This document shows positions 11,146-41,673 of a stretch of 64,000 bases of DNA, piece by piece (within the stretch, counting starts at the first letter, position 1; each line of letters starts with the position of its first letter). The stretch lies in contig CAMNHF010000002.1 in assembly GCA_946538975.1 (NCBI GenBank), positions 1 through 64,000 on the forward strand. Reading direction: 5' to 3'. The position numbers and the translations under genes are program-made. This stretch comes from an uncultured Clostridia bacterium (lineage in GTDB: Bacteria; Bacillota; Clostridia; Christensenellales; Aristaeellaceae). The notes beneath the pieces were generated by a model, which saw only the letters and a list, made by a program, of their open reading frames with translations, did no database searches and was not told the DNA's origin.

Positions 11146-11952
11146 TCAGTCCCGCCGGATCGTGTAGACGCCGCCCACGCGGTCGCGCCAGGCCAGGTCG
11201 ATGCAGACGTCCTTCCCCAGCTCCATGCCCTCCAGCTCGGCCCGGCTCTCGCTGGTGTCCAGCGCCAGCTGCGGGGTATTGTTCTCGCCGGAGAGGTGGC
11301 CGAGGATGATGTTCTGCGTGCCGCGCTCCACCAGCGTGACCAGCGCCTCGGAGCAGGTCTCGTTGGACAGGTGGCCGTGATTGCCCAGGATGCGGCGCTT
11401 CAGCGCGGCGGAATAGTGATCGTTCCGCTTCAGCATGTCGGGGTCGTGATTGCTCTCCAGCAGCACCAGATCGCTGCCGGCGATGGCATCCCGCACACGC
11501 TCCGGGAAGCAGCCCAGATCCGTCGCGATGGACAGGCTGGCCCCGCCGCCCCACAGCCGGAAGCCGCAGGGCTCCGCCGCGTCGTGGGGGATGGCGAAGG
11601 GCGTCACGCCCAGATCGCCCACATAGAAGTCCGCGTCCCGGTCAAAGGTGCGCTTCATCCCGTCCGGCAGCTTGCCGATCTTGCTGCCGATGCCGCGCCA
11701 GGTGCCCGGCGTCGCGTAGACCGGCAGCTTCCAGCGGCGGGAGAGAACGCCAACGCCGGAGATGTGGTCGGAGTGCTCGTGGGTCAGGAGAATGCCGCTC
11801 AGGCTCTCCGGCTCCACCCCGATGAAGCGCAGGGCGTCCTCCACGGTGCGGCCCGGCTTTCCCGCGTCCACCAGCAGCCGGGTCCCGCCGTACTGCACAA
11901 AAAGCGCGTTGCCGCTGGAGCCGGAATAGAGCGGGCAGAATATCAGATCCAT
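11146..11952 (-). CDS. MBL-fold metallohydrolase, WalJ/YycJ-like
   Basis: This 268-residue metallo-beta-lactamase-fold enzyme has the metal-binding motif HEHSDH (about residues 58-63) and an N-terminal CPLYSGSSGNALFV strand pair. It also has the distal NHGHLSNE and GHLSGENN histidines typical of the YycJ/WalJ group. Family members are nuclease-like or of unknown substrate, and in Bacillus they belong to the WalRK regulon. Here it is not next to walRK; it lies between the ABC-F gene and the glycan genes, 12 bases after licD. AAGGAAC serves as ribosome site. Confidence 0.87.
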   Translation of the reverse strand: MDLIFCPLYSGSSGNALFVQYGGTRLLVDAGKPGRTVEDALRFIGVEPESLSGILLTHEHSDHISGVGVLSRRWKLPVYATPGTWRGIGSKIGKLPDGMKRTFDRDADFYVGDLGVTPFAIPHDAAEPCGFRLWGGGASLSIATDLGCFPERVRDAIAGSDLVLLESNHDPDMLKRNDHYSAALKRRILGNHGHLSNETCSEALVTLVERGTQNIILGHLSGENNTPQLALDTSESRAELEGMELGKDVCIDLAWRDRVGGVYTIRRD

Positions 11953-11964
11953 GCGTTTTGTTCC

Positions 11965-12705
11965 TTACACGTCCAGATGCTTGGCGACCCGCTCGCTCTC
12001 CGGCGGCGGCGTCATGTAGTCAGGCCCGAACAGCTCCGTGAGCACCTCGGCATAGCGCTTCGGGATCAGCACGGGGATGTCCTCAAAGGGCACGGTCTCC
12101 TTCTCCGCGAACTGCTCCGGATGCCAGATGTGCATCATCAGCTCAAAGGCGCCGTTGCTCATGGAGAGGTCGCTGCCGGTCTTCACCTCGGTGGACACCT
12201 TCTCATAGCGGCGAACCTTCCACTGGGTGGAGAAGGGCAGGCCCATCAGGTGGGTGGCGCGCAGCAGGATGCGGTTCTTCAGCGAGAAGCGGCTGTAGTC
12301 CACATTCCGCTTGAGCATTCCCTGCAGCAGATGCAGCCGCAGGAACCACCACTTGCGCTTCAGACCCTCCGGCGGCACCCGGTCCAGGATGAAGAAATCC
12401 GTCCAGGCCTCGGCCAGGGCAGGGTCGCTGTTCATCACACGCGGCGTCCAGGTGTTCAGGTAGGTCAGCTCAAAGCGCGGGTCGCGCTCCGAGGGATAGA
12501 CGCGGCGGAACTTCTCGAATTCCTCCCGCGTGAAGAGCAGATCCACGTCGTCATCCCACGGGATGAAGCCCTTGTGCCGCACCGCCCCCAGCAGGGAGCC
12601 GCACATCATGTTGTACTGGATGCCGTGCCGCGCGCAGACCGCGGTGATGTCCCGCAGCTGCTCCAGCAGCTCCGCGTGAATCTCTTCCAGGGTCAGCTTC
12701 GGCAT
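11965..12705 (-). CDS. LicD family phosphotransferase-like protein
   Basis: LicD-family proteins transfer phosphorylcholine or other phospho-alcohols from a CDP donor to surface glycans. The 246-residue product has the hallmark GSLLGAVRHKGFIPWDDDVDL, a nucleotidyltransferase-type fold with a metal-binding acidic motif at about residues 36-56. The start at 12705 follows AGGAGGAAACGAC; the track ORF extends upstream through the transketolase gene in another frame. It overlaps the upstream transketolase gene by 13 bases, so translation is coupled. Its place after a sugar transferase and split transketolase suggests it decorates a cell-surface polymer with a phospho-linked group. Confidence 0.85.
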   Translation of the reverse strand: MPKLTLEEIHAELLEQLRDITAVCARHGIQYNMMCGSLLGAVRHKGFIPWDDDVDLLFTREEFEKFRRVYPSERDPRFELTYLNTWTPRVMNSDPALAEAWTDFFILDRVPPEGLKRKWWFLRLHLLQGMLKRNVDYSRFSLKNRILLRATHLMGLPFSTQWKVRRYEKVSTEVKTGSDLSMSNGAFELMMHIWHPEQFAEKETVPFEDIPVLIPKRYAEVLTELFGPDYMTPPPESERVAKHLDV

Positions 12706-13640
12706 GTCGTTTCCTCCTCTTCGCGCACCAGCTGCCGGGCCAGCGCAGCCACCGCCGCGGCATCCATCCCGTAATGGGCGCGCAGGTACTGCTGATTGCC
12801 CACCACGGAGGAGTATACGTCGGGCATGCCGACGCGGTGCACCCGGCACGGCGCGCCGAGCCCCGCCACGACCTCGCAGACCGCGCTGCCGAAGCCGCCG
12901 ACCACGGTGTGCTCCTCCACAGTGATGAGATGGCGGAAGCGGCCGCTGAGCTCCGCCAGCTTCTTCTCGTCGATGGGCTTGATGCTGGGGAAGGAGACCA
13001 CCTCGGCGGAGATGCCCTCCGCGGCCAGCGCCTCCGCCGCTGCCATCGTCTGCGTCAGGATGCCGCCGGCCGACAGCAGGGCGATGTCGCTGCCGCGGCG
13101 CAGGGTGAAGGCCTCCGGCAGCTTCCACGACGTGATCGGCTCCGGATGCACCACCGGCTCGCCGCCCCGCCCCAGACGCAGATAGCAGGTGCCCTCTGTC
13201 CGCAGCATCACGGGGACGACGGCCTCCACCTCCGCCGGATCGCCGGGGGTGAACACGGTCACACCGGGGAGGGCCCGCATCACGGCCATGTCCTCGGTGG
13301 CGTGGTGGCTCATGCCCAGGCTGCCGTAGACGAAGCCGCCGCCCACGCAGACGATCTTGACATCCGCCCCGTGATAGGCGCAGTCGTTGCGAATCTGCTC
13401 CACGCAGCGCAGGGTCGGGAAATTGCCAATGGAATAGGTGAGCACCGTGCGCCCGGTCCGGGACAGGCCGGCAGCCAGGCCGGTCATGCCCTGCTCGGCG
13501 ATGCCCGCGTTGACGAACTGCTTCGGATAGGTCTCCCAGAAGGGCCGCAGCACGCCGAAGCCCAGGTCGCCGGTGATCAGCGTCAGCCGGCTGTCCTCCT
13601 TCGCGGCGCGCATCAGCGCCCGCACAAAAGCGTCTCTCAT
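12693..13640 (-). CDS. Transketolase, C-terminal subunit
   Basis: This 315-residue protein has the pyrimidine-binding and C-terminal domains of a transketolase. The glutamate motif NAGIAEQGMTGLAAGL at about 43-58 is the conserved thiamine-diphosphate activating Glu region. Its N-terminal half is encoded separately just upstream (13637-14503), and the genes overlap by 4 bases. Split transketolases are common in anaerobes for pentose metabolism. Here the pair is embedded among glycan-assembly genes, so a dedicated ketol transfer for sugar-precursor synthesis is possible; this is inference. Confidence 0.88.
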   Translation of the reverse strand: MRDAFVRALMRAAKEDSRLTLITGDLGFGVLRPFWETYPKQFVNAGIAEQGMTGLAAGLSRTGRTVLTYSIGNFPTLRCVEQIRNDCAYHGADVKIVCVGGGFVYGSLGMSHHATEDMAVMRALPGVTVFTPGDPAEVEAVVPVMLRTEGTCYLRLGRGGEPVVHPEPITSWKLPEAFTLRRGSDIALLSAGGILTQTMAAAEALAAEGISAEVVSFPSIKPIDEKKLAELSGRFRHLITVEEHTVVGGFGSAVCEVVAGLGAPCRVHRVGMPDVYSSVVGNQQYLRAHYGMDAAAVAALARQLVREEEETTCRS

Positions 13641-14503
13641 GGCCGCTGCGCCTCCAGTTCCTTCAGGGCCGCCTCGTATTCATCCCCCTGGGGCGTGCGG
13701 TAATGCCACAGGATGTCGTTCTCCATAAAGCTGACGCCCTTGCCCTTCACCGTCACCGCGATGATCACCTGGGGCTGGCCGCGGACCTCCTTCGCCTCGG
13801 CAAAGGCGCGCTCCAGGGCCGCCGGATCGTGGCCGTCCACCGTGCAGGCGTGCCAGCCGAAATCCCGCCACTTGGCCTCGAAGGGCTCCAGCCGCAGCGT
13901 GTTTTCCGTAAAGTCCAGGGACTGCATCCGGTTCCGGTCGACGACCACAGTCAGCCCGTCCAGGCCAAATTGCGCCGCCTGCAGGGCCGCCTCCCAGACG
14001 GAACCCTCGTCGCACTCACCGTCGCCCAGCACCGCATACACCCGCCACGTGGCGCCGTCCATGCGCGCGCCCAGCGCCAGGCCCGCCGCCACCGCCAGCC
14101 CGTGTCCCAGGGAGCCGGTGGAGAATTCCACGCCCGGCACGCCCTTGTGGCTGACATGGCCCGAAAGAATGGAGCCGTTGGCATAGTGCTCCTTCAGCTG
14201 CTCCACGGGGAAGAAGCCGCGCTCGGCCAGAGCGGCGTACACCGCGGCGCCCGCGTGGCCCTTGGAAAGGATCAGCCGGTCCCGGTCAGGCCAGAGCGGC
14301 TCCTCCGGCCGCACGCGCAGCACGCGGGTGTAGAGCACGGCCATGATCTCCGCCAGGGAGAAGATCGCGCCGATGTGGCTTCCGCGGCTCAGATGGGTCA
14401 TCTCCAGCCCGTGGCGGCGAATCAGCCACGCCAGCACCCGCGGATCCGACGTGTCGATTTCCGTGCCGCCAAAGGCACTGTGTGTCCATTCGGTATAATT
14501 CAT
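13637..14503 (-). CDS. Transketolase, N-terminal (thiamine diphosphate-binding) subunit
   Basis: This 288-residue protein is the pyrophosphate-binding half of a transketolase. LSKGHA (about 79-84), GSLGHGL and the ThDP signature GDGECDEGSVWEA ending in the VVDRN region are all present. It needs the downstream subunit for an active site at the interface. It starts four bases inside the sugar-transferase gene (ATGA overlap). The four glycan-block genes are therefore tightly coupled in the order sugar transferase, TktN, TktC, LicD. Confidence 0.9.
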   Translation of the reverse strand: MNYTEWTHSAFGGTEIDTSDPRVLAWLIRRHGLEMTHLSRGSHIGAIFSLAEIMAVLYTRVLRVRPEEPLWPDRDRLILSKGHAGAAVYAALAERGFFPVEQLKEHYANGSILSGHVSHKGVPGVEFSTGSLGHGLAVAAGLALGARMDGATWRVYAVLGDGECDEGSVWEAALQAAQFGLDGLTVVVDRNRMQSLDFTENTLRLEPFEAKWRDFGWHACTVDGHDPAALERAFAEAKEVRGQPQVIIAVTVKGKGVSFMENDILWHYRTPQGDEYEAALKELEAQRP

Positions 14504-15207
14504 CTGGCATTCCTTCCCGCGGCGGACTCCGCGCTGTGCTTTTTCCCCGCCTTGCCGGCCACGCCGGCCAGCGTCTCAAAGAACAGCCGCGCGTCCAGGC
14601 CGAAGCTCTGGTTCTTCGCGTACTCCACCCGCAGGCGGTTCTTCTCCGGCAGCACCAGCCGCTCGAAGTTCTCCACCGGGTTCTCCGTGCCGACGATCTC
14701 GTCCTGGGCGATGAACACGATGGAGGAGCGGTCGGTCACGCCGGGGCGCACCCACAGGATGCACTCCTGCTCCTTCGTGTACTGCATGGTGTATAGCAGC
14801 AGCTCCGGCCGGGGCCCGACAAAGGACATATCGCCCTTCAGGATGTTGAACAGCTGCGGAATCTCGTCCAGCTTCAGCCGCCGCATCACCCGTCCGGCCC
14901 GCGTCACGCGGCTGTCGCCCAGGGCCGTGCAGCCGCCGGTTTTGTCCGCGTCCACGACCATGGAGCGGAACTTCAGGATGTAGAACGGCTTGTTGTGGTA
15001 GCCGCCGCGCACCGCCCGGTAGAAGACGGGGCCGGGCGAGTCCAGCTTGACCCAGAGAGCCAGCGGCAGCATCAGCACCAGGCCGGGCACCAGCAGAATC
15101 AGCGCCAGCAGCAGATCCAGCGCGCGCTTTACGACATGCGAATAAAACGGGTGGGACAGCGGTCCATCCCACCTCGGCAGGTCCGGCAGTTTTTCACGGT
15201 CAGCCAA
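14500..15207 (-). CDS. Bacterial sugar transferase (undecaprenyl-phosphate glycosyl-1-phosphate transferase type)
   Basis: This enzyme attaches the first sugar-1-phosphate to a lipid carrier and so starts synthesis of a surface polysaccharide or glycan. It has one N-terminal hydrophobic hairpin (LLLALILLVPGLVLMLPLALW) and the catalytic PglC/WcaJ-like core. Core motifs are FYILKFRSM, LKLDEIPQL and DMSFVGPRPE. The length (235 residues) fits the small monotopic class without the extra four-helix domain. The TTG at 15207 has the best spacing from AAAGGAG; a GTG at 15216 overlaps that site and is the track start. Confidence 0.88.
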   Translation of the reverse strand: MADREKLPDLPRWDGPLSHPFYSHVVKRALDLLLALILLVPGLVLMLPLALWVKLDSPGPVFYRAVRGGYHNKPFYILKFRSMVVDADKTGGCTALGDSRVTRAGRVMRRLKLDEIPQLFNILKGDMSFVGPRPELLLYTMQYTKEQECILWVRPGVTDRSSIVFIAQDEIVGTENPVENFERLVLPEKNRLRVEYAKNQSFGLDARLFFETLAGVAGKAGKKHSAESAAGRNAR

Positions 15208-15235
15208 TTGCGACACTCCTTTGGTTGGCGCAGCC

Positions 15236-16096
15236 TCACGCCTGTTCCATTCTGTCCAGCAGCTCGCTCAGCCGCTCCAGCTCCTCGCGGGAGTAGTACT
15301 GCAGCACGATGCGCCCCTTCTTCTCCGTGCCGGTCAGCGTCGCCCGGACGCCCATGCATTCGCGGATGCGGCGCTCCAGCTCGCTCAGCTCCACGGGGAG
15401 CGCCTTCACCCGCTTCGGCGCGGGGGGCGGCGGCAGCTCGCGGCGGGCGGCGGCGACGGCCTCCAGCTGGCGGACACTCCAGCCCTCGGCGGCGCAGCTG
15501 CGGGCGAGGGAGATCTTCTCCTCGTCGCTGTCCAGACCGGCCAGCACCCGCGCATGTCCGGCGGAGAGCGTGCCGTCCTTCACCAGGGCCGCCACCTCCT
15601 CCGGCAGCGTCAGCAGGCGCAGCAGGTTGGCCACTGCCGGGCGGCTCTTGCCCAGGCGCTGCGCGGCCATTTCCTGGTTGTAGCCGTGCTGGTCCATCAG
15701 CTGACGGATGCCCAGCGCCGCCTCCATCGGGTTGAGATCCTCACGCTGCAGGTTCTCCACCAGCGCGATCTCCATCTGTGTCGGCACGCTCAGCTCCCGC
15801 ACCAGGCAGGGCACGCTCGCCAGCCCGGCCAGCCGCGCGGCCCGCCAGCGGCGCTCGCCCGCGACGATGCGGTAGCGGCCCGCGTTCTCCACCACCAGCA
15901 GGGGCTGCAGCACGCCCTGCTCCCGGATGGACTGCGCCAGCTGCGCCAGGTTCTCCTCCGGGAAGCTGCGCCGCGGCTGATCCGGGTTCGGATCAATGTC
16001 CCCGATGGCGATCTCCCGCAAATTGTCGCCGCCGGCATTCTCCTCCGGCAGCAGGACGTCCAGGCCCCGGCCCAGTCCGTGGATCTTCTTTGGCAT
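15236..16096 (-). CDS. parB: Chromosome partitioning protein ParB (Spo0J-like)
   Basis: ParB is the centromere-binding CTPase switch that spreads from parS sites and loads SMC. The 286-residue product has the typical N-terminus GLGRGLDVLL, the CTP-binding GERRWRAA motif (about 79-86), ENLQREDLNP, a helix-turn-helix domain (about 125-165) and a C-terminal dimerisation domain. It is co-transcribed with parA, 21 bases downstream of it. I saw no convincing parS palindrome in this window. Confidence 0.93.
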   Translation of the reverse strand: MPKKIHGLGRGLDVLLPEENAGGDNLREIAIGDIDPNPDQPRRSFPEENLAQLAQSIREQGVLQPLLVVENAGRYRIVAGERRWRAARLAGLASVPCLVRELSVPTQMEIALVENLQREDLNPMEAALGIRQLMDQHGYNQEMAAQRLGKSRPAVANLLRLLTLPEEVAALVKDGTLSAGHARVLAGLDSDEEKISLARSCAAEGWSVRQLEAVAAARRELPPPPAPKRVKALPVELSELERRIRECMGVRATLTGTEKKGRIVLQYYSREELERLSELLDRMEQA

Positions 16097-16117: not shown

Positions 16118-16963
16118 TCACGCTTTGGCGGACTTTTTCTTTTTCTTCTTGTCCTTGGGCTTGTCTTTCTTTTTCTTCGGAGGCTCCGGCGGCGCGACCG
16201 CGGTGCGGCCGTTGCGGCGCAGCACCTCCTCCGCCAGCGCCCGGTAGGCCAGCGCGCCGGCCGACTTGCCGTCATAGATGTGGATCGGCTCGCCGTGGGA
16301 AGGCGCCTCGCCCAGGCGCACGCTGCGCGGGATCGTCACGCTGTAGACCTGCTGATGGAAGTGCTTCTTCACCTCGTCCACCACCTGCAGGCCCAGGTTG
16401 GTCCGCCCGTCCAGCATGGTCAGCAGCACGCCCTCCACGCCCAGGGCGGGGTTGATGCTCTTGCGGGCGCGGCTGATTGTGCTGACCAGGCTGGAGACGC
16501 CCTCCAGCGCGAAGTATTCGCACTGGATCGGGATCAGCACCGTGTCGGCGGCGGCCAGCGCGTTGATGGTCAGCAGCCCCAGGGACGGCGGGCAGTCAAT
16601 GAACACAAAGTCGTAGTCCGTCTTCACCGCGGCGAGGGCGTTCTTCAGCCGGTACTCGCGCTGCGGCACATCGACCAGCTCCAGCTCCGCGCCGGCCAGC
16701 CGGATGTCGCTGCAAACGATGTCCAGCCCCTTCCAGGGCGTCTTCTCCACACACTCCTGCATGGCCGCGCGTCCCAGCAGCGCCTCGTAGACGCTGCGCT
16801 CGCCGGCTTCCATGCCCAGCGCGCTGCTCGTGTTTCCCTGCGGGTCAAAATCGACAATCAAAACCCGGCTGCCCAGCTCTCCCAGCAGCGCGGAAAGGTT
16901 GACCGCCGTGGTCGTCTTGCCAACGCCGCCCTTCTGGTTCGTAACCGCTATCGTCTTTGCCAT
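16118..16963 (-). CDS. parA: Chromosome partitioning ATPase ParA (Soj-like) with lysine-rich tail
   Basis: ParA is a deviant Walker ATPase that moves ParB-DNA over the nucleoid. Residues 5-17 are AVTNQKGGVGKTT, with the deviant P-loop lysine; the switch and Walker B regions are VDFDPQGN and FVFIDCPPSLG. The core ends near residue 252. It is followed by a basic tail of about 25 residues made almost entirely of K, D, P and A, which is not part of standard Soj and may give extra nonspecific DNA binding. AGGGAG precedes the start, and a strong promoter lies 45-73 bases upstream. Confidence 0.94.
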   Translation of the reverse strand: MAKTIAVTNQKGGVGKTTTAVNLSALLGELGSRVLIVDFDPQGNTSSALGMEAGERSVYEALLGRAAMQECVEKTPWKGLDIVCSDIRLAGAELELVDVPQREYRLKNALAAVKTDYDFVFIDCPPSLGLLTINALAAADTVLIPIQCEYFALEGVSSLVSTISRARKSINPALGVEGVLLTMLDGRTNLGLQVVDEVKKHFHQQVYSVTIPRSVRLGEAPSHGEPIHIYDGKSAGALAYRALAEEVLRRNGRTAVAPPEPPKKKKDKPKDKKKKKKSAKA

Positions 16964-29281: not shown

Positions 29282-31678
29282 TTATGCGGTTGTATCCGGC
29301 TCCGGAGCGGCGCTGATCTTCACTTCCGCCGCTCCGAACTCGGAATCGGCCTTCAGCGTGACATCGCCGTGCACCTCGATGATGGCCAGCGCCTCGCCAT
29401 AGTAGGTGTCGCAGATGCTGCCCAGATAGTCCAGCTCATAGTAGGGACAGGCGCTGCCGCAGGCGAGCAGCTTCCCGCCGTCGACGGTCAGGCTGATCCT
29501 GGCGCGCTCGGTCACCTTTGTGATGCCGCTGTCGTCGGTCAGCCGCAGCCGGACGAAGGCGAGATGGCCCTTTCCGACGGCAGGCGCCTCCGGCTCCAGA
29601 CGGAGACGGGTTTCGTTTGCGGCAGAGCACAGGCGGTCGCGGCCGATCTCCCTGCCGTCGGCGTCCAGGGCGGCGGCCTCCAGCACACCCGCCTCATAGG
29701 GGACGCGGAAGCGCCAGACGCAGTTCTTTTTGTCCTTCCGGCCCGCGATCGTGCGGCCGTTCAGCTTCAGCACCAGGGAGGCGCAGCGGGCGTAGACCTC
29801 TACGTCCGCCGTGCGGCCTTCGCAGCCTGGGTAGGACCAGCTGCGCATCGCGTTGGTCATCTTCCAGGCGGAGGGGCTGTGCTTGCCCTGATGGCAGAGG
29901 GGCCGCACGGCGATGAAGGGGCCGCTTTCCCGCTCCAGGGCCACCCGGGTATAATAGGCCTCGCCCAGCGGCTTGCCGGTGAGATCAATGCGGCCGCTGC
30001 CGGCGGTGATCCAGCCGGGGCCCTGGTCGAAGCTGGGGGCGTAGTCCGGGTACTCCCACGCGCCGATCATCACCTCGCCCAGGTAGTCGATGCCGGCCCA
30101 GACAAAGTCGCCGAGAATGCGCGGCTCCTTTTTCGCGATCTCCCAGAAGCGGAAGGCATCGGCACAGAAGGTCTCGGAGCCCAGGATCAGCCGGTCGGGA
30201 TAGCGCCGCAGATCCCGCTCGTAGCGCTTCTCGCCGTAATTGTAGCCGGCGATGTCCATGGCCGCGAAGGCGTCCCGGGTATGGACATCTGAGCCGTGCA
30301 GGGTCGCGCCGAACTTCATGAAGTCCGCGCCCAGCAGCCCAGCCAGATCGTTGAAGAACTTGGAGCCGGTCGACCGCTCCTTGGCTTTCTTGCCCGCGGC
30401 CTTCGCCTTCGCATTGCGGGCGGCTTCCTTTGCCGCCTTTTCGTCGGAATACTGGCCGAAGCCGATGGCATTCAGGAAATTGAAGAAGATGTTGATGCCG
30501 CAGGTGACGGGGCGGGTGGCGTCGAGGCTGTGCAGGTATTCGGTCATCTCGCGGGTGAGGGCGATGCCCCGCGCCTGCGCCGTCTCCGCCACCTCGTTGC
30601 CGGTGGAGTAGAGGATCACACAGGGATGGCAGTAGTCCTTGTCCACCAGATCGGCCAGATCCCGCTGCCACCACTGCGCGAAGTCATTGGCGTAGTCGTA
30701 CTGGGTCTTGTGGATGTACCACATATCCACATACTCATCCATGACCAGCATGCCGAGGCGGTCGCAGATCTCCAGGGCCGTCTTGGAGCAGGGGTTGTGG
30801 GCGGAGCGGATGGCGTTGTAGCCGTTTTCCATCAGCAGGCGAACCCGGCGCTCCACCGCGTCGGGATGGCAGGCGGCGCCCAGCAGGCCGTTGTCGTGGT
30901 GGATGCAGGCGCCGCGAAGGATCACCCGCTCGCCGTTGATCTTGAGGCCGTCCCGCCCCCAGCTGAGGGTGCGCGCGCCGAAGCGCTCCTCCGCCGTGTC
31001 ATCGGCATAGCGGACCCGGCAGGTGTACAGCTTCGGGGCCTCCGGGGACCAGGGGAGGGCACCGGGGAGCTCCAGCTCGAAGCTGCGTCCGTCCCCCGCT
31101 GCGCCGGCCAGCACCTTTCCGCCATCGCGGATCTCCACGGCGACCGGCCCGTCCCCGCTGGTTTTCACGTCCACGCGAATCTTCACGGGCCGCACGGAAA
31201 GGGTCGTGATCTTCACGCCGTTCAGCGCAATGTGCCGCTTTCCGCTGCGCCACAGCCGCACGGGGCGGTATATGCCCGCGCCGGAGTACCAGCGCGAGTT
31301 GGGCTGATCGGCGTTGCGGGCGATGACCTCCACCGTGTTTTCCCCCGCGTGGACAAAGGCACCGCAGTCCACATAAAAGTTCGTGTAGCCGTAGGGGCGG
31401 AAGCCGGCCTTCTGCCCGTTGATGCGCACCTCCGCGTTGCGGTAGACGCCCTCGAATTCCAGCACGAGGCAGCCGGCCAGATCCGCTTCGGAGAGGGTGA
31501 AGCGCTTCGCGTAGAGGTAATCGTGTCCCTCAAACCAGCTGCCGTTCAGGCCGCTCGCCGCCTCGTGCGTGCGCTTCTCCCGGAGCATGGCGTCATCGGG
31601 AATGGAGACAGGCCGGCCTTCGCCCGCTTCCTCCAGGTGACGGCAGGTCCAGCCGTCGTGAAACAGTTCGCTCAGCAT
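29282..31678 (-). CDS. Glycoside hydrolase family 2 (beta-galactosidase/beta-glucuronidase-like)
   Basis: GH2 enzymes remove terminal beta-linked sugars. The 798-residue protein has the N-terminal jelly-roll (EVRINGQKAGFRPYGYTNF), an immunoglobulin-like domain (about 170-265) and the TIM barrel. Barrel motifs are GACIHHDNGLLG, NAIRSAHNP, the acid/base STGNEVAET (Glu near 361) and the probable nucleophile LGSETFCAD (Glu near 500). A lysine/alanine-rich loop (KAAKEAARNAKAKAAGKKAK) interrupts the barrel. Two Ig-like domains follow. There is no signal peptide, so it is cytoplasmic. The 5' end and leader are duplicated at 37556-38251. The exact sugar specificity cannot be read. Confidence 0.9.
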   Translation of the reverse strand: MLSELFHDGWTCRHLEEAGEGRPVSIPDDAMLREKRTHEAASGLNGSWFEGHDYLYAKRFTLSEADLAGCLVLEFEGVYRNAEVRINGQKAGFRPYGYTNFYVDCGAFVHAGENTVEVIARNADQPNSRWYSGAGIYRPVRLWRSGKRHIALNGVKITTLSVRPVKIRVDVKTSGDGPVAVEIRDGGKVLAGAAGDGRSFELELPGALPWSPEAPKLYTCRVRYADDTAEERFGARTLSWGRDGLKINGERVILRGACIHHDNGLLGAACHPDAVERRVRLLMENGYNAIRSAHNPCSKTALEICDRLGMLVMDEYVDMWYIHKTQYDYANDFAQWWQRDLADLVDKDYCHPCVILYSTGNEVAETAQARGIALTREMTEYLHSLDATRPVTCGINIFFNFLNAIGFGQYSDEKAAKEAARNAKAKAAGKKAKERSTGSKFFNDLAGLLGADFMKFGATLHGSDVHTRDAFAAMDIAGYNYGEKRYERDLRRYPDRLILGSETFCADAFRFWEIAKKEPRILGDFVWAGIDYLGEVMIGAWEYPDYAPSFDQGPGWITAGSGRIDLTGKPLGEAYYTRVALERESGPFIAVRPLCHQGKHSPSAWKMTNAMRSWSYPGCEGRTADVEVYARCASLVLKLNGRTIAGRKDKKNCVWRFRVPYEAGVLEAAALDADGREIGRDRLCSAANETRLRLEPEAPAVGKGHLAFVRLRLTDDSGITKVTERARISLTVDGGKLLACGSACPYYELDYLGSICDTYYGEALAIIEVHGDVTLKADSEFGAAEVKISAAPEPDTTA

Positions 31679-31747
31679 GGGTATGCCTCCTTGCGGCGTT
31701 TGAATCCGGCGCTTGAATCGCCCGTTCGGGGAACAGGCACTGTCAGG

Positions 31748-31776
31748 ATCTTACGTCTGCGGCGCAGCCGGGGCAA
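31748..31776 (-). promoter_or_regulatory. Possible promoter for GH2
   Basis: TTGCCC (31776-31771) and TAAGAT (31753-31748) have a 17-base spacer. The same sequence occurs in the duplicate at 38055-38083. Confidence 0.45.
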
Positions 31777-31822
31777 GGCGGACAGCACAGATTGCCGCTT
31801 TCCCGGCGTATTCTGTGAGAAA

Positions 31823-31850
31823 GGGCGGCAGTCCGTGCAGACCGCCGCCC
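31823..31850 (-). terminator. Hairpin terminator after the small membrane protein gene
   Basis: GGGCGG...CCGCCC, with inner GTC/GAC, forms a tight stem 21 bases after the stop codon. On the minus strand it is followed by TTTCTC, a weak T tract. The copy is at 38130-38157. Confidence 0.55.
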
Positions 31851-31871
31851 CGGGAAGCGTGCCGAATGGAA

Positions 31872-32267
31872 TCAGGCCTTGGATTTCTTCATGAAGCAGG
31901 CCGCGACGGCGGTGATGATGGCCGCGATGCTGACGCCGGCCAGGGTGTAGTTCAGCCCCGCCAGCTCCGGCAGGCCGACCATCTTGATGCCGTTCATGGA
32001 TTCCGCGATGTTCCAGATGCCGTCAGAGAACACGGTGATGCACACATAGGCCAGGGCTGCCGCGCCGAGAATGCCGGTGAAATCGGTCCAGGGCTTCTCG
32101 CCCAGGAGGGAGGCCGCCTCGCACAGGATCGCCACGACGGCCGCGGCCCACACCAGGCCCTGCACCACGCCGCCCTGGGCGCTGTAGACAATCAGCAGGA
32201 TGAAGGTCACCACCGCCAGCACGCAGGTGACGGCCGCGAAATAGAAGCCAGTGCTCTTGTTTTTCAT
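31872..32267 (-). CDS. Small four-helix membrane protein, unknown function
   Basis: The 131-residue product has four hydrophobic segments (about 11-30, 36-56, 65-85 and 105-125; FYFAAVTCVLAVVTFILLIVY, then SIAAIITAVAACF) and ends in KKSKA. Helix-loop topology suggests both ends face the cytoplasm. The start at 32267 follows AGGAGATCCAACC. It lies 33 bases after the membrane-bound GH3 gene and before GH2. It may be a membrane partner of the GH3 enzyme; I know of no characterised family. The last 24 codons are present again in the duplicate at 38179. Confidence 0.75.
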   Translation of the reverse strand: MKNKSTGFYFAAVTCVLAVVTFILLIVYSAQGGVVQGLVWAAAVVAILCEAASLLGEKPWTDFTGILGAAALAYVCITVFSDGIWNIAESMNGIKMVGLPELAGLNYTLAGVSIAAIITAVAACFMKKSKA

Positions 32268-37523: not shown

Positions 37524-37985
37524 TCATCGGCCCCATGGCGGCTGGACGACGACCTGCCACAGCCGCACGGGGCGGTAGATGCCTGCGCCGGAGTACCAGC
37601 GCGAGTTGGGCTGATCCGCGTTGCGGGCGATGACCTCCACCGTGTTTTCCCCCGCGCGGACAAAGGCGCCGCAGTCCACATAAAAGTTCGTGTAGCCGTA
37701 GGGGCGGAAGCCGGCCTTCTGCCCGTTGATGCGCACCTCCGCGTTGCGGTAGACGCCCTCGAATTCCAGCACGAGGCAGCCGGCCAGATCCGCTTCGGAG
37801 AGGGTGAAGCGCTTCGCGTAGAGGTAATCGTGTCCCTCAAACCAGCTGCCGTTCAGGCCGCTCGCCGCCTCGTGCGTGCGCTTCTCCCGGAGCATGGCGT
37901 CATCGGGAATGGAGACAGGCCGGCCTTCGCCCGCTTCCTCCAGGTGACGGCAGGTCCAGCCGTCGTGAAACAGTTCGCTCAGCAT
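37524..37985 (-). pseudogene. Truncated duplicate of the GH2 gene (N-terminal fragment)
   Basis: The first 143 or so residues are essentially identical to the GH2 protein at 29282-31678 (one visible change, His to Arg, in CGAFVRAGENT). The reading frame then leaves the homology at base 37556 and ends after about ten unrelated residues (QVVVQPPWGR). Only the jelly-roll N-terminus is kept and no catalytic domain, so it cannot be an active glycosidase. It retains the ribosome site, leader and possible promoter of the parent gene. Confidence 0.92.
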
Positions 37986-38329
37986 GGGTATGCCTCCTTG
38001 CGGCGTTTGAATCCGGCGCTTGAATCGCCCGTTCGGGGAACAGGCACTGTCAGGATCTTACGTCTGCGGCGCAGCCGGGGCAAGGCGGACAGCACAGATT
38101 GCCGCTTTCCCGGCGTATTCTGTGAGAAAGGGCGGCAGTCCGTGCAGACCGCCGCCCCGGGAAGCGTGCCGAATGGAATCAGGCCTTGGATTTCTTCATG
38201 AAGCAGGCCGCGACGGCGGTGATGATGGCCGCGATGTTGACGCCGGCCAGGACTTCCGCCGATTGATACTTGCAGCCGCCGTCGGTGTATTTGCCGAAGC
38301 AGGGCGCTGCGTCCGTATCGATGGCGCCA
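37556..38329. repeat. Duplicated, internally deleted copy of the glycosidase operon segment
   Basis: Bases 37556-38251 match 31249-31944, and bases 38252-38329 match 32611-32688. Compared with the parent, 666 bases are missing at a GCCAGG microhomology, so the 3' part of the small membrane gene is joined directly to an internal piece of GH3. No insertion sequence or terminal repeat is visible at either edge. Confidence 0.93.
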
Positions 38330-38469: not shown

Positions 38470-41400
38470 TCACCAGTCCAGCGTGAATTCGTCGATGTCG
38501 GCAAATTCGGGGAAGTGCTTCTTCTTGTATTCCAGCAGCAGGGCGGTGCAGCGGATCGCGCTATGGGAGACGGCCAGCTCCAGCAGGCCGGAGATCTGTG
38601 CAGCGGTGAAGCCGGAGAGGCTCTCCTCCGTCAGCGCCGGATCGTTGTCGCAGCTGACCTGATGTGCCATGGTCGCCTTGTCCAGCACCAGCAGGATGGC
38701 GTTCATCTCCCGCGGGCTGCCGTCATGGATGACGCTTTTCCCGAAGGTAACTGCGCCGGTCTTCTCATCCACGGTGTAGTGCAAACACAGGCTCCTGCCA
38801 AAGTACATATCATTCTCGTTAGAGAAAGCAAATTTGCCGGTGCTGTCATCATAATACCGGCGCATCTCTCCGGAATGCACATCGATGCCGCGCAGGGCCA
38901 GCGCTTTCTTCACCGCGCTGCGTTCTTCCTTGGACAACACGGCGCCAGCGTACCGTGTCTCCCTGATTTCACTGATCCTTCTCGCGTACAAAGGCTCCCA
39001 CACCTGTTCAAAGAGCTGCTTTTTGCCAGTCCGGGCGAAATACCGCTGCCAGGCCACCGTTTGAGCAGGATCCATCTCGATCACATGGGCGACGCGGATC
39101 TTGCCTTTCGGGTTGCAGGGCTGTCCTTTGCAGTCAACAAAACGGTCGCCTTCGATCACGAAGGTCGTTTTCCCTTCATCCTCCCATACCAGCAGATTGG
39201 TCAGATGACGGATGACCGGATGCCCCACGTACACCCTGCGCCACAGCTCGGGATTCAGCCATTCGCCGGACATATGCAGCTTGTGGAGCAGGGCTGTGCG
39301 CTCCTTCGCAAAGGTGAGAACTTCCTTTTTGAACGCAGCATACGCCTCCGCGCACGCCTCCGCTTTGGCCGGATCGCTGCCCTTCTTCGGGAAACTGCGA
39401 ATCTCCTTTTGCTTCGCAGTGTCGAAGAGCCTGAAGCCCAGTTCCGGCGTGATGCTGACCTCGATCACGGTATCGCCGGTGTCATAGCGCTTGATGCCGT
39501 CCGCGTCGAAATCAAACGCGGGCAGCATGACAGAATCCCGCATCTCCATTGCCGTCATGCCGCGCATCTCCGCGTATCGGTCGAGCTCTCCGATTCTTTC
39601 ATAGAACTGCATCGCCGCGGGCGTATCGTTGATCATCAGTGCATCACGGATGCATCTTGCCTTTTTATGATCCTCGTCCGCATCTCTCTTCCTGATCATC
39701 GTTTTGTATGTTGCGGTCATCCGTTCAATGCTCTCCTCGTCCGCAAAGCTTGCCCAGGCAATCAGCCATGGCCTGAAGCTGTAGCCGCTCACCAGGCTTT
39801 CGCAGAACAGAGAAAGAGAGGCTTGATCCAGCGCCTGTGCCACCGCATCTGCCTGCGGATGCCGTTTGATTTTTATTCCTCTCATCAGCACTGGCTCAGC
39901 CGAGGAAGTGGCACAGCGATTCCATTCCCGGGCATATTCGGACAGGATAAACGCCACGGCTTCCCGAGACGAAAGCGTCGTTGATCCGGCATAGGGAAGA
40001 CCTTTCTTCACTACGCTTAATGCTTCCGGGAGCAGAGGACTGTTCTTCATCCATTCCCGCACATGCGCCTCGATGGGATTCTCAATGACTTTTCCACCGG
40101 CAAGAATCATGGTGATCTCCGGATTCGTCTGAAGAATTGTTAAATCAGAATATTTCCGCTGCTCCAGCAGTTTCATCGCCGACACAAGCTGTTCTGGCAG
40201 CAGCTTCTGCAGATAAGCTAGAATATAGGCCCCGACAACCTTCGCCGGCGCTTTGTTGTCTTGTGCGAACTGCGCAAGCATATGATCGAAAACTGCCTTC
40301 TCCCTGCCGCTGATCTGCTCGTTGACACGTTTTGCCCACGCTACGCCTTTCTGATACAGCATGACAAAGGCGATTTCCCGGTCAGAAAAGCGAATCGGTA
40401 TCTTTGCGAATTCAGCGTACAGTTTTTCTTTAGTTGCGAAATAACCGTTAGAGATTACTTCCCTCAAGCTCTCACATTCGCGAAAAGCCGATTCACTGAT
40501 ACTGGTCACGCTGTCCGGGATTGTGATGCTCTCGAGGCTGCTACAGCCAGAGAAAGCCCATTCGCCAATGCTTGTTACGCTGTCTGGGATGGTGATGCTC
40601 GTGAGGCTGCTGCACTGATAGAAAGCGCGATCGCCAATGCTTGTTACGCTGGGCGGAATTGATACGCTTGTGATTTTGCCGCATCCCCCAAATGCTCTGT
40701 ATGGGATCTCCCTTGTTCCCTCTGGGATGACGATCTCATGTGTGATCACATCGTCCAGCACCAATTCTGTTGATCCACTGAATGGATTGTCTTCCCAGTA
40801 CTGCTTTTTCATCGAAAGCCACGAGGTCAGACTGGTACAACGGATCTCATGAATGCTGCAGCCTGAGAAAGCGTGCTTGCCAATGCTGGTCACACTATTC
40901 GGAATTGATACACTTGTGATTTTGCTGCATCCCCAAAATGCTCCGTATGGGATCTCCCTTGTTCCCTCTGGAATGACGATCTCATGTGTGATCACATCGT
41001 CCAGCACCAATTCTGTTGATCCACTGAATGGATTGTCTTTCCAGTACTGCTTTTTCATCGAAAACCACGAGGTCAGACTGGCACAACGGATCTCATGAAT
41101 GCTGCAGCCATCGAAAGCCCAATTGCCAATGCGGGTGACGCTGTCCGGGATGGTGATGCTCGTGAGGCTGCTGCAGCCAAAGAAAGCGCGATCGCCAATA
41201 CTGGTGACGCTGTCTGGGATGGTGATGCTCGTGAGGCTGCTGCAGCCTTCGAAAGCGCGATCGCCAATGCTGGTCACACTACTTGGAATTGATACGCTTG
41301 TGATTCTGCCACATCCCCAAAATGCTCCGCATGGGATCTCCCTTGTTCCCTCTGGGATGACGATCTCATGTACGCTCACATCATCCAGCACCAAATCTGT

Positions 41401-41673
41401 ATATTCTCTGAACGGATTATCGCACCAGTTTTCCTTTTTCATCGAAAGCCATGAAGCCAGACTCGCACAGCGGACTTCAAAAATGTTGCAGTGACTGAAA
41501 GCCCAGACGCCAATACTTGTGACGCTGTCCGGGATTGTGATGCTTGTGAGGCGTCCGCAGCCAGCGAAAGCCTTCTCGCCAATGCTGGTCACTCCATCTG
41601 GGATCACCACGTCTCCGCCAGATCCTTCGTATCTGACCAGGCATCCCTGCTTATCAATTACGAAATCACTCAT
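38470..41673 (-). CDS. BspA-type leucine-rich repeat - DUF4132 fusion protein
   Basis: This 1067-residue cytoplasmic protein has no signal peptide. Residues 1-430 are BspA/LRR_5 leucine-rich repeats of 23 residues (consensus SLTSITIPDSVTSIGDRAFxGC). They are interrupted three times by the strand-rich insert SWLSMKKQYWEDNPF...LVLDD...IVIPEGTREIPYGAF. Residues 430-1067 carry the DUF4132 domain; its signature lies near 810-900 (LWRRVYVGHPVIRHLTNLLVW, HVIEMDPAQ, KKQLFEQVWEP). DUF4132 is the domain of E. coli YehI/MolR, where it is joined to WGR and encoded near a MoxR ATPase and a VWA protein. Here the LRRs replace WGR. The start overlaps the HEPN-like gene by 8 bases. Base composition is visibly more AT-rich than in neighbours. 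Confidence 0.85.
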   Translation of the reverse strand: MSDFVIDKQGCLVRYEGSGGDVVIPDGVTSIGEKAFAGCGRLTSITIPDSVTSIGVWAFSHCNIFEVRCASLASWLSMKKENWCDNPFREYTDLVLDDVSVHEIVIPEGTREIPCGAFWGCGRITSVSIPSSVTSIGDRAFEGCSSLTSITIPDSVTSIGDRAFFGCSSLTSITIPDSVTRIGNWAFDGCSIHEIRCASLTSWFSMKKQYWKDNPFSGSTELVLDDVITHEIVIPEGTREIPYGAFWGCSKITSVSIPNSVTSIGKHAFSGCSIHEIRCTSLTSWLSMKKQYWEDNPFSGSTELVLDDVITHEIVIPEGTREIPYRAFGGCGKITSVSIPPSVTSIGDRAFYQCSSLTSITIPDSVTSIGEWAFSGCSSLESITIPDSVTSISESAFRECESLREVISNGYFATKEKLYAEFAKIPIRFSDREIAFVMLYQKGVAWAKRVNEQISGREKAVFDHMLAQFAQDNKAPAKVVGAYILAYLQKLLPEQLVSAMKLLEQRKYSDLTILQTNPEITMILAGGKVIENPIEAHVREWMKNSPLLPEALSVVKKGLPYAGSTTLSSREAVAFILSEYAREWNRCATSSAEPVLMRGIKIKRHPQADAVAQALDQASLSLFCESLVSGYSFRPWLIAWASFADEESIERMTATYKTMIRKRDADEDHKKARCIRDALMINDTPAAMQFYERIGELDRYAEMRGMTAMEMRDSVMLPAFDFDADGIKRYDTGDTVIEVSITPELGFRLFDTAKQKEIRSFPKKGSDPAKAEACAEAYAAFKKEVLTFAKERTALLHKLHMSGEWLNPELWRRVYVGHPVIRHLTNLLVWEDEGKTTFVIEGDRFVDCKGQPCNPKGKIRVAHVIEMDPAQTVAWQRYFARTGKKQLFEQVWEPLYARRISEIRETRYAGAVLSKEERSAVKKALALRGIDVHSGEMRRYYDDSTGKFAFSNENDMYFGRSLCLHYTVDEKTGAVTFGKSVIHDGSPREMNAILLVLDKATMAHQVSCDNDPALTEESLSGFTAAQISGLLELAVSHSAIRCTALLLEYKKKHFPEFADIDEFTLDW
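40703..41109. repeat. Tandem near-identical 246-bp LRR modules
   Basis: Bases 40703-40863 and 40949-41109 are nearly identical with a period of 246 bases (82 codons). A more diverged third copy starts at 41333. Each encodes the insert WLSMKKQYW...IPEGTREIP plus flanking repeats. The high identity points to recent expansion or gene conversion. Confidence 0.9.

Follow-up and report, generated by a model that had tools for sequence, protein, structure and literature searches.

Two-carbon branching of a keto-sugar by a TPP-dependent enzyme is known from yersiniose, where YerE adds the branch and a reductase, YerF, follows. YerE decarboxylates pyruvate, adds an acetyl group, and belongs to a TPP superfamily other than that of the transketolases. 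Its substrate, CDP-3,6-dideoxy-4-keto-D-glucose, is the product of RfbF/G/H (PMC12247030). For miharamycin and amipurimycin of Streptomyces, split transketolases, encoded by two genes, have been put forward as the enzymes that would attach hydroxyacetyl to keto-sugars, and the 13 such sequences counted in that review are all from Streptomycetes (PMC12247030). TktN- and TktC-like genes also occur with Wzx/Wzy and a bacterial sugar transferase domain in the wps-2 exopolysaccharide cluster of Actinoplanes missouriensis, for which no LicD and two DegT aminotransferases are reported (PMC13390465). Literature searches on split transketolase by name, on sugars with two-carbon branches, and on transketolase together with LicD returned nothing.

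Here we describe a four-gene operon in a 64,000-nucleotide stretch of DNA from an uncultured Clostridia bacterium, which we refer to as the window. Like the miharamycin and amipurimycin pairs, the operon carries a two-gene transketolase, and hydroxyacetyl addition to a sugar ketone is the proposed reaction. However, those pairs lie in antibiotic clusters, whereas the window pair lies in a conserved, putative surface-glycan operon of Clostridia with a sugar transferase (ST) and a LicD protein; this comparison is one of descriptions.

Gene content and family assignments

The minus strand of the window encodes, in order, parA-parB-ST-tktN-tktC-licD-MBL-ABC-F-dnaE (dnaE identified by reading its sequence). 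Four of these genes form one operon with overlapping ends, and all four are intact and well over the curated Pfam family cut-offs. ST (14500-15207; Bac_transf, 8.5e-50) would be a small, monotopic, PglC-like sugar-1-phosphate transferase acting on polyprenyl phosphate. TktN (13637-14503; Transketolase_N, 1.2e-40) and TktC (12693-13640; Transket_pyr, 1.1e-25, and Transketolase_C, 1.4e-27) are the N-terminal TPP-binding and C-terminal subunits of a single divergent split transketolase, and a LicD family phosphotransferase follows (11965-12705; LicD, 3.2e-29). Successive genes overlap by 4 nt (ST/TktN), 4 nt (TktN/TktC), and 13 nt (TktC/LicD). For ST, we preferred the TTG start at 15207 to an alternative GTG at 15216 because AAAGGAG ends 8 nt ahead of the TTG. 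Upstream lie ParB (15236-16096; 2e-34) and ParA (16118-16963; 1.4e-64), and downstream an MBL-fold hydrolase (11146-11952; 8.9e-21), all on the minus strand.

The best PDB match of ST was PglC (8e37, E 3.5e-28), with LDEIPQLFNILKGDMSFVGPRPE aligning to a segment of that enzyme. ST shares both fold family and DE-containing motif with the PglC-type monotopic phosphoglycosyl transferases, having the Bac_transf domain and the DE dyad. LicD scored 103.1 bits against PF04991 (cut-off 22.6) and contains the DDD motif within WDDDVD (12541-12558, minus strand), a set of catalytic-type acidic residues in which W50, D51, D52, D53, and D55 are invariant across 18 orthologues. Its predicted model (pLDDT 80.9) matched fukutin-related protein (FKRP) best, at an E of 1.5e-5 and a modest TM score of about 0.4. 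By contrast with its membership of the LicD family, it fell below the equivalog cut-off for the diacylglycerol cholinephosphotransferase Mf1 (NF045866; 85.8 vs. 225 bits). We base both assignments on family and motif, plus a model in the case of LicD.

Elsewhere in the window, a 696-base repeat occurs in two 99%-identical copies (31249-31944 and 37556-38251). A long minus-strand open reading frame (ORF) begins identically in both, so one copy would be either a truncated duplicate or a product of the assembly. Positions 40504-41491 hold diverged internal repeats with 84-89% identity.

Conservation of the operon

To follow the linkage, we searched 150 related genomes for orthologues of ST (at least 64% identity), TktN (at least 60%), and LicD (at least 39%). 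All three coincided in the same 21 genomes and occurred essentially nowhere else, with one exception each way: G090, from another family, has TktN without ST and LicD orthologues, and G052 is the LicD exception, its contig stopping after TktC. Fisher values for this overlap take no account of common descent and are descriptive. In a contig search, the order ST-TktN-TktC-LicD was kept at 55 of the 57 loci with TktC at least 60% identical, and contig ends cut the remaining two. The flanks were also stable among the 55 order-keeping loci, with ParB upstream in 54 and the MBL gene downstream in 49. G008, a 95% complete genome of the same genus, yielded neither an ST match nor a match to TktN or LicD of the operon type. 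The four-gene module belongs to the core of this lineage without being universal in it. The set is conserved across a group of Clostridia from gut and rumen, and by conservation the linkage is real and functional. A sequence-only reading of the window had proposed that the four genes act together, and this is borne out by their overlapping ends, conserved order, and co-occurrence, including that of TktN/TktC with LicD and a PglC-like transferase in the same 21 genomes.

Several relatives carry additional genes in or around the operon. Between TktC and LicD, some encode one or two small proteins from a single family, which look secreted, with an N-terminal hydrophobic segment and no Pfam match (L039 7000-9239, L047 6938-7570, L054 6984-8776), and a similar gap in L052 holds an ORF. 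A GNAT acetyltransferase is inserted between ST and TktN in L035 (4558-5109), and a CAAX-protease-like (Rce1-like) gene lies between the MBL and ABC-F genes in some relatives (L035 8581-9447, L039 10960-11760). The most divergent operon copies have a polytopic membrane protein directly downstream of LicD (L146 6778-8364, L147 5920-7581, L152 189-1814); we dropped a flippase identity for this protein, as Pfam gives no meaningful match. In G067, ST-TktN-TktC and a LicD relative (39%) are on separate contigs (L148 and L149), indicating that LicD can be uncoupled from the other three genes.

A count of transketolases in the window's own genome found one further copy, on contig C3. It is also split and has the canonical His and Asp where the operon copy is changed; LicD, in turn, is present only once. 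The linkage had been open to the objection that a sole transketolase, kept elsewhere in relatives, could have come to lie here by accident. Instead, a second copy exists, and relatives keep the same operon. Judged from its residues, the operon TktN/TktC is not the housekeeping enzyme. The genome's canonical split transketolase (L115 9846-11504) adjoins an apparent two-gene ABC exporter, as read by eye.

Active site of the split transketolase

Among solved structures, the operon pair is closest to the split transketolase of Carboxydothermus hydrogenoformans, with TktN matching the N chain of 6yak (E 1.7e-72) and TktC the C chain of 6yaj (E 2.7e-55). The pair shares with it the two-chain domain split, in which one gene encodes Transketolase_N and its neighbour the Pyr/C domains, and the TPP machinery, including the TPP motif and catalytic Glu. 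However, the canonical Ser, His, and Asp contacts of the Carboxydothermus enzyme are replaced by Gly, Gly, and Leu in the window pair. We mapped TktC residues through the 6yaj alignment and read the patterns over about 100 rows, using E. coli transketolase numbering (R358, S385, E411, H461, D469, H473, R520). In transketolase, the phosphate of the substrate is bound by S385 and H461, and the aldose's alpha-hydroxyl is sensed by D469.

The S385 equivalent is Gly27, in the GDLGFG segment of TktC (13554-13571, minus strand), as supported by the 6yaj alignment, residue patterns, and invariant alignment columns. In the GGGFVYGSLGMSHH segment (13302-13343, minus strand), H461 is replaced by Gly100 and D469 by Leu108, while H473 is kept as His112 (6yaj alignment, residue patterns, and invariant alignment columns). 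These three replacements are found in all TktC of the window lineage, which retain R358, E411, and H473, and the Gly/Gly/Leu pattern reaches distant relatives too, with small variations. The R520 equivalent is also kept in the operon TktC. Compared with a canonical pentose-phosphate site (R358, S385, H461, R520, D469), three residues are thus changed and two kept, leaving the site with two of its four phosphate contacts and without the Asp that senses the alpha-hydroxyl. TktN keeps the TPP motif and its catalytic His, GDG, Glu, and Asn residues, with altered motif neighbours (HPG to HIG, GHPD to GHVS, and WHG to WHY). Because the changes lie on the acceptor side and spare the TPP and catalytic residues, we expect activity with a different acceptor. 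A phosphorylated substrate is possible, since two phosphate-contacting Arg residues remain.

Relatives of the divergent TktC

In a tree of 50 TktC rows, the window clade was sister (100/98) to TktC from glycan clusters of Lachnospiraceae and Oscillospiraceae. These clusters are laid out as ST-aldo/keto reductase-TktN-TktC-glycosyltransferase, and we found no LicD match in them. Both clades fell inside a 27-row clade (99/92) that includes RfbF/G/H-SDR loci, and canonical transketolases branched outside it. As at the YerE/YerF system, genes for making a keto-sugar accompany some of these relatives: at eight variant loci (L098, L150, L151, L199, L200, L201, L202, and L203), RfbF and/or RfbG lie next to TktN/TktC, and RfbH and an SDR are also present at several. 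Two of them, L202 of Methylovirgula and L203 of Paenibacillus, are annotated plasmids. The 99/92 clade excludes L201 and L203 and takes in L200 with weak support (88/78). In Paenibacillus, an SDR and TktN are fused in one protein (Epimerase 19-247, Transketolase_N 383-612). The genetic link to ketosugar-nucleotide genes and a reductase is present for eight relatives but absent beside the window operon.

Other relatives have different surroundings. In L155 and L156, a TktC of the divergent clade lies beside sugar importers and has Tyr at the R520 position; these members are probably catabolic, and their position indicates that this set of residues need not mark glycan synthesis. Near the divergent pairs of Atopobiaceae (L100, L101, and L105), we found none of the glycan genes sought. 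The Rhizobium locus L204 may encode an apulose transketolase; this identity is a lead, as our literature search gave no paper that links apulose to a transketolase.

Candidate acceptors

The window operon neither contains nor adjoins a ketosugar-forming gene, and no RfbF/G/H or SDR lies next to it. In the same genome, rfbF (identified from its sequence) and a CDP-glucose 4,6-dehydratase are encoded on contig C89. Among operon-bearing genomes, this dehydratase (RfbG) was present in 7 of 21, vs. 9 of 129 others. A PglF-like dehydratase was present in 12 of 21 and 55 of 129, respectively, which shows no association. CDP-4-keto-6-deoxyglucose as a universal acceptor in the lineage is unsupported, given a dehydratase in only 7 of 21 genomes, and we likewise rejected a PglF-type UDP-GlcNAc 4,6-dehydratase as a universal partner. 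Because no ketosugar gene lies beside the operon and the dehydratase is found in a third of its bearers, ketone branching is better supported for the clade than for the window operon.

Proposed function and alternatives

We give about an even chance to the reading that the operon is a surface-glycan module in which TktN/TktC performs ketol transfer to a keto-sugar, yielding a C-branched surface sugar. ST would place a sugar-1-phosphate on a polyprenyl-phosphate carrier. TktN/TktC would take a two-carbon hydroxyacetyl (ketol) unit from a ketose and join it to an activated keto-sugar at its ketone carbon, and a C-branched sugar would result, by analogy with YerE using pyruvate in yersiniose. LicD may decorate the product with a phospho-substituent resembling phosphocholine or a phospho-alditol. 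We infer the ketone acceptor, the ketol transfer, the order of steps, and the identities of the sugar, donor, and LicD substituent.

The sequence-only reading had offered two roles for the transketolase, as a source of a branched-sugar precursor or of a pentose or polyol phosphate that LicD transfers. Its view of the genes as a unit with conserved linkage stood. We favour the first role because of the active-site changes and the relatives beside ketosugar-making genes, and the second fared poorly. In that second account, TktN/TktC would make a ketose-, pentose-, or tetrose-phosphate (a polyol phosphate after reduction) that is activated and then transferred by LicD. The fold match of LicD to FKRP, a ribitol-5-phosphate transferase, fits this account, as does the retention of both phosphate-binding Arg residues (R358 and R520 equivalents) in TktC. 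Yet the S385, H461, and D469 equivalents are gone, the canonical second transketolase already provides pentose phosphates, and the operon has no CDP-alditol synthetase or reductase. In addition, the sister clusters pair TktN/TktC with ST and an aldo/keto reductase rather than with a detectable LicD, and G067 has its LicD on another contig. We therefore consider a polyol phosphate unlikely and prefer the branched sugar.

The missing phosphate ligand and alpha-hydroxyl-sensing Asp would suit, too, an enzyme acting on an aldehyde, transferring a C2 unit to, or removing it from, a non-phosphorylated open-chain sugar and so producing an unusual ketose, heptulose, or octulose unit in the glycan. Transketolase engineering has established that such residue losses fit non-phosphorylated, non-hydroxylated aldehydes, and some clade members lie near sugar importers. 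However, genes of the CDP-glucose pathway, whose product is a ketone, pair with the variant at eight loci, and we regard an aldehyde substrate as quite improbable. It is very doubtful that TktN/TktC lacks catalytic activity and instead scaffolds or regulates the glycan enzymes: it has lost several substrate contacts, but the TPP-binding motif, catalytic Glu, and active-site His are conserved throughout. An ordinary housekeeping transketolase placed by accident beside glycan genes is the hardest reading to credit, and we hold it extremely improbable. The block adjoins parAB and other core genes, a stable context in which position alone could be inherited. Still, the second, canonical transketolase and the strict co-occurrence with ST and LicD rule out accidental linkage, and the divergent active site and independent glycan clusters elsewhere also speak against it.

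Implications

Returning to the branched-sugar reading, we tentatively extend it beyond the window, at somewhat less than an even chance: a split-transketolase clade may carry out ketol branching of keto-sugars for bacterial surface glycans, having spread across several phyla by gene clusters. In one Clostridia lineage it would have settled as a core operon together with a dedicated phosphoglycosyl transferase and LicD. C-branched surface sugars would then have a second biosynthetic route, independent of YerE. If so, ketone-accepting transketolases, which are listed as proposed but uncharacterised (PMC12247030), could be tested with concrete gene pairs. An enzyme of central metabolism would have been recruited for making branched surface sugars, and a glycan component common to many rumen and gut Clostridia would be predicted.
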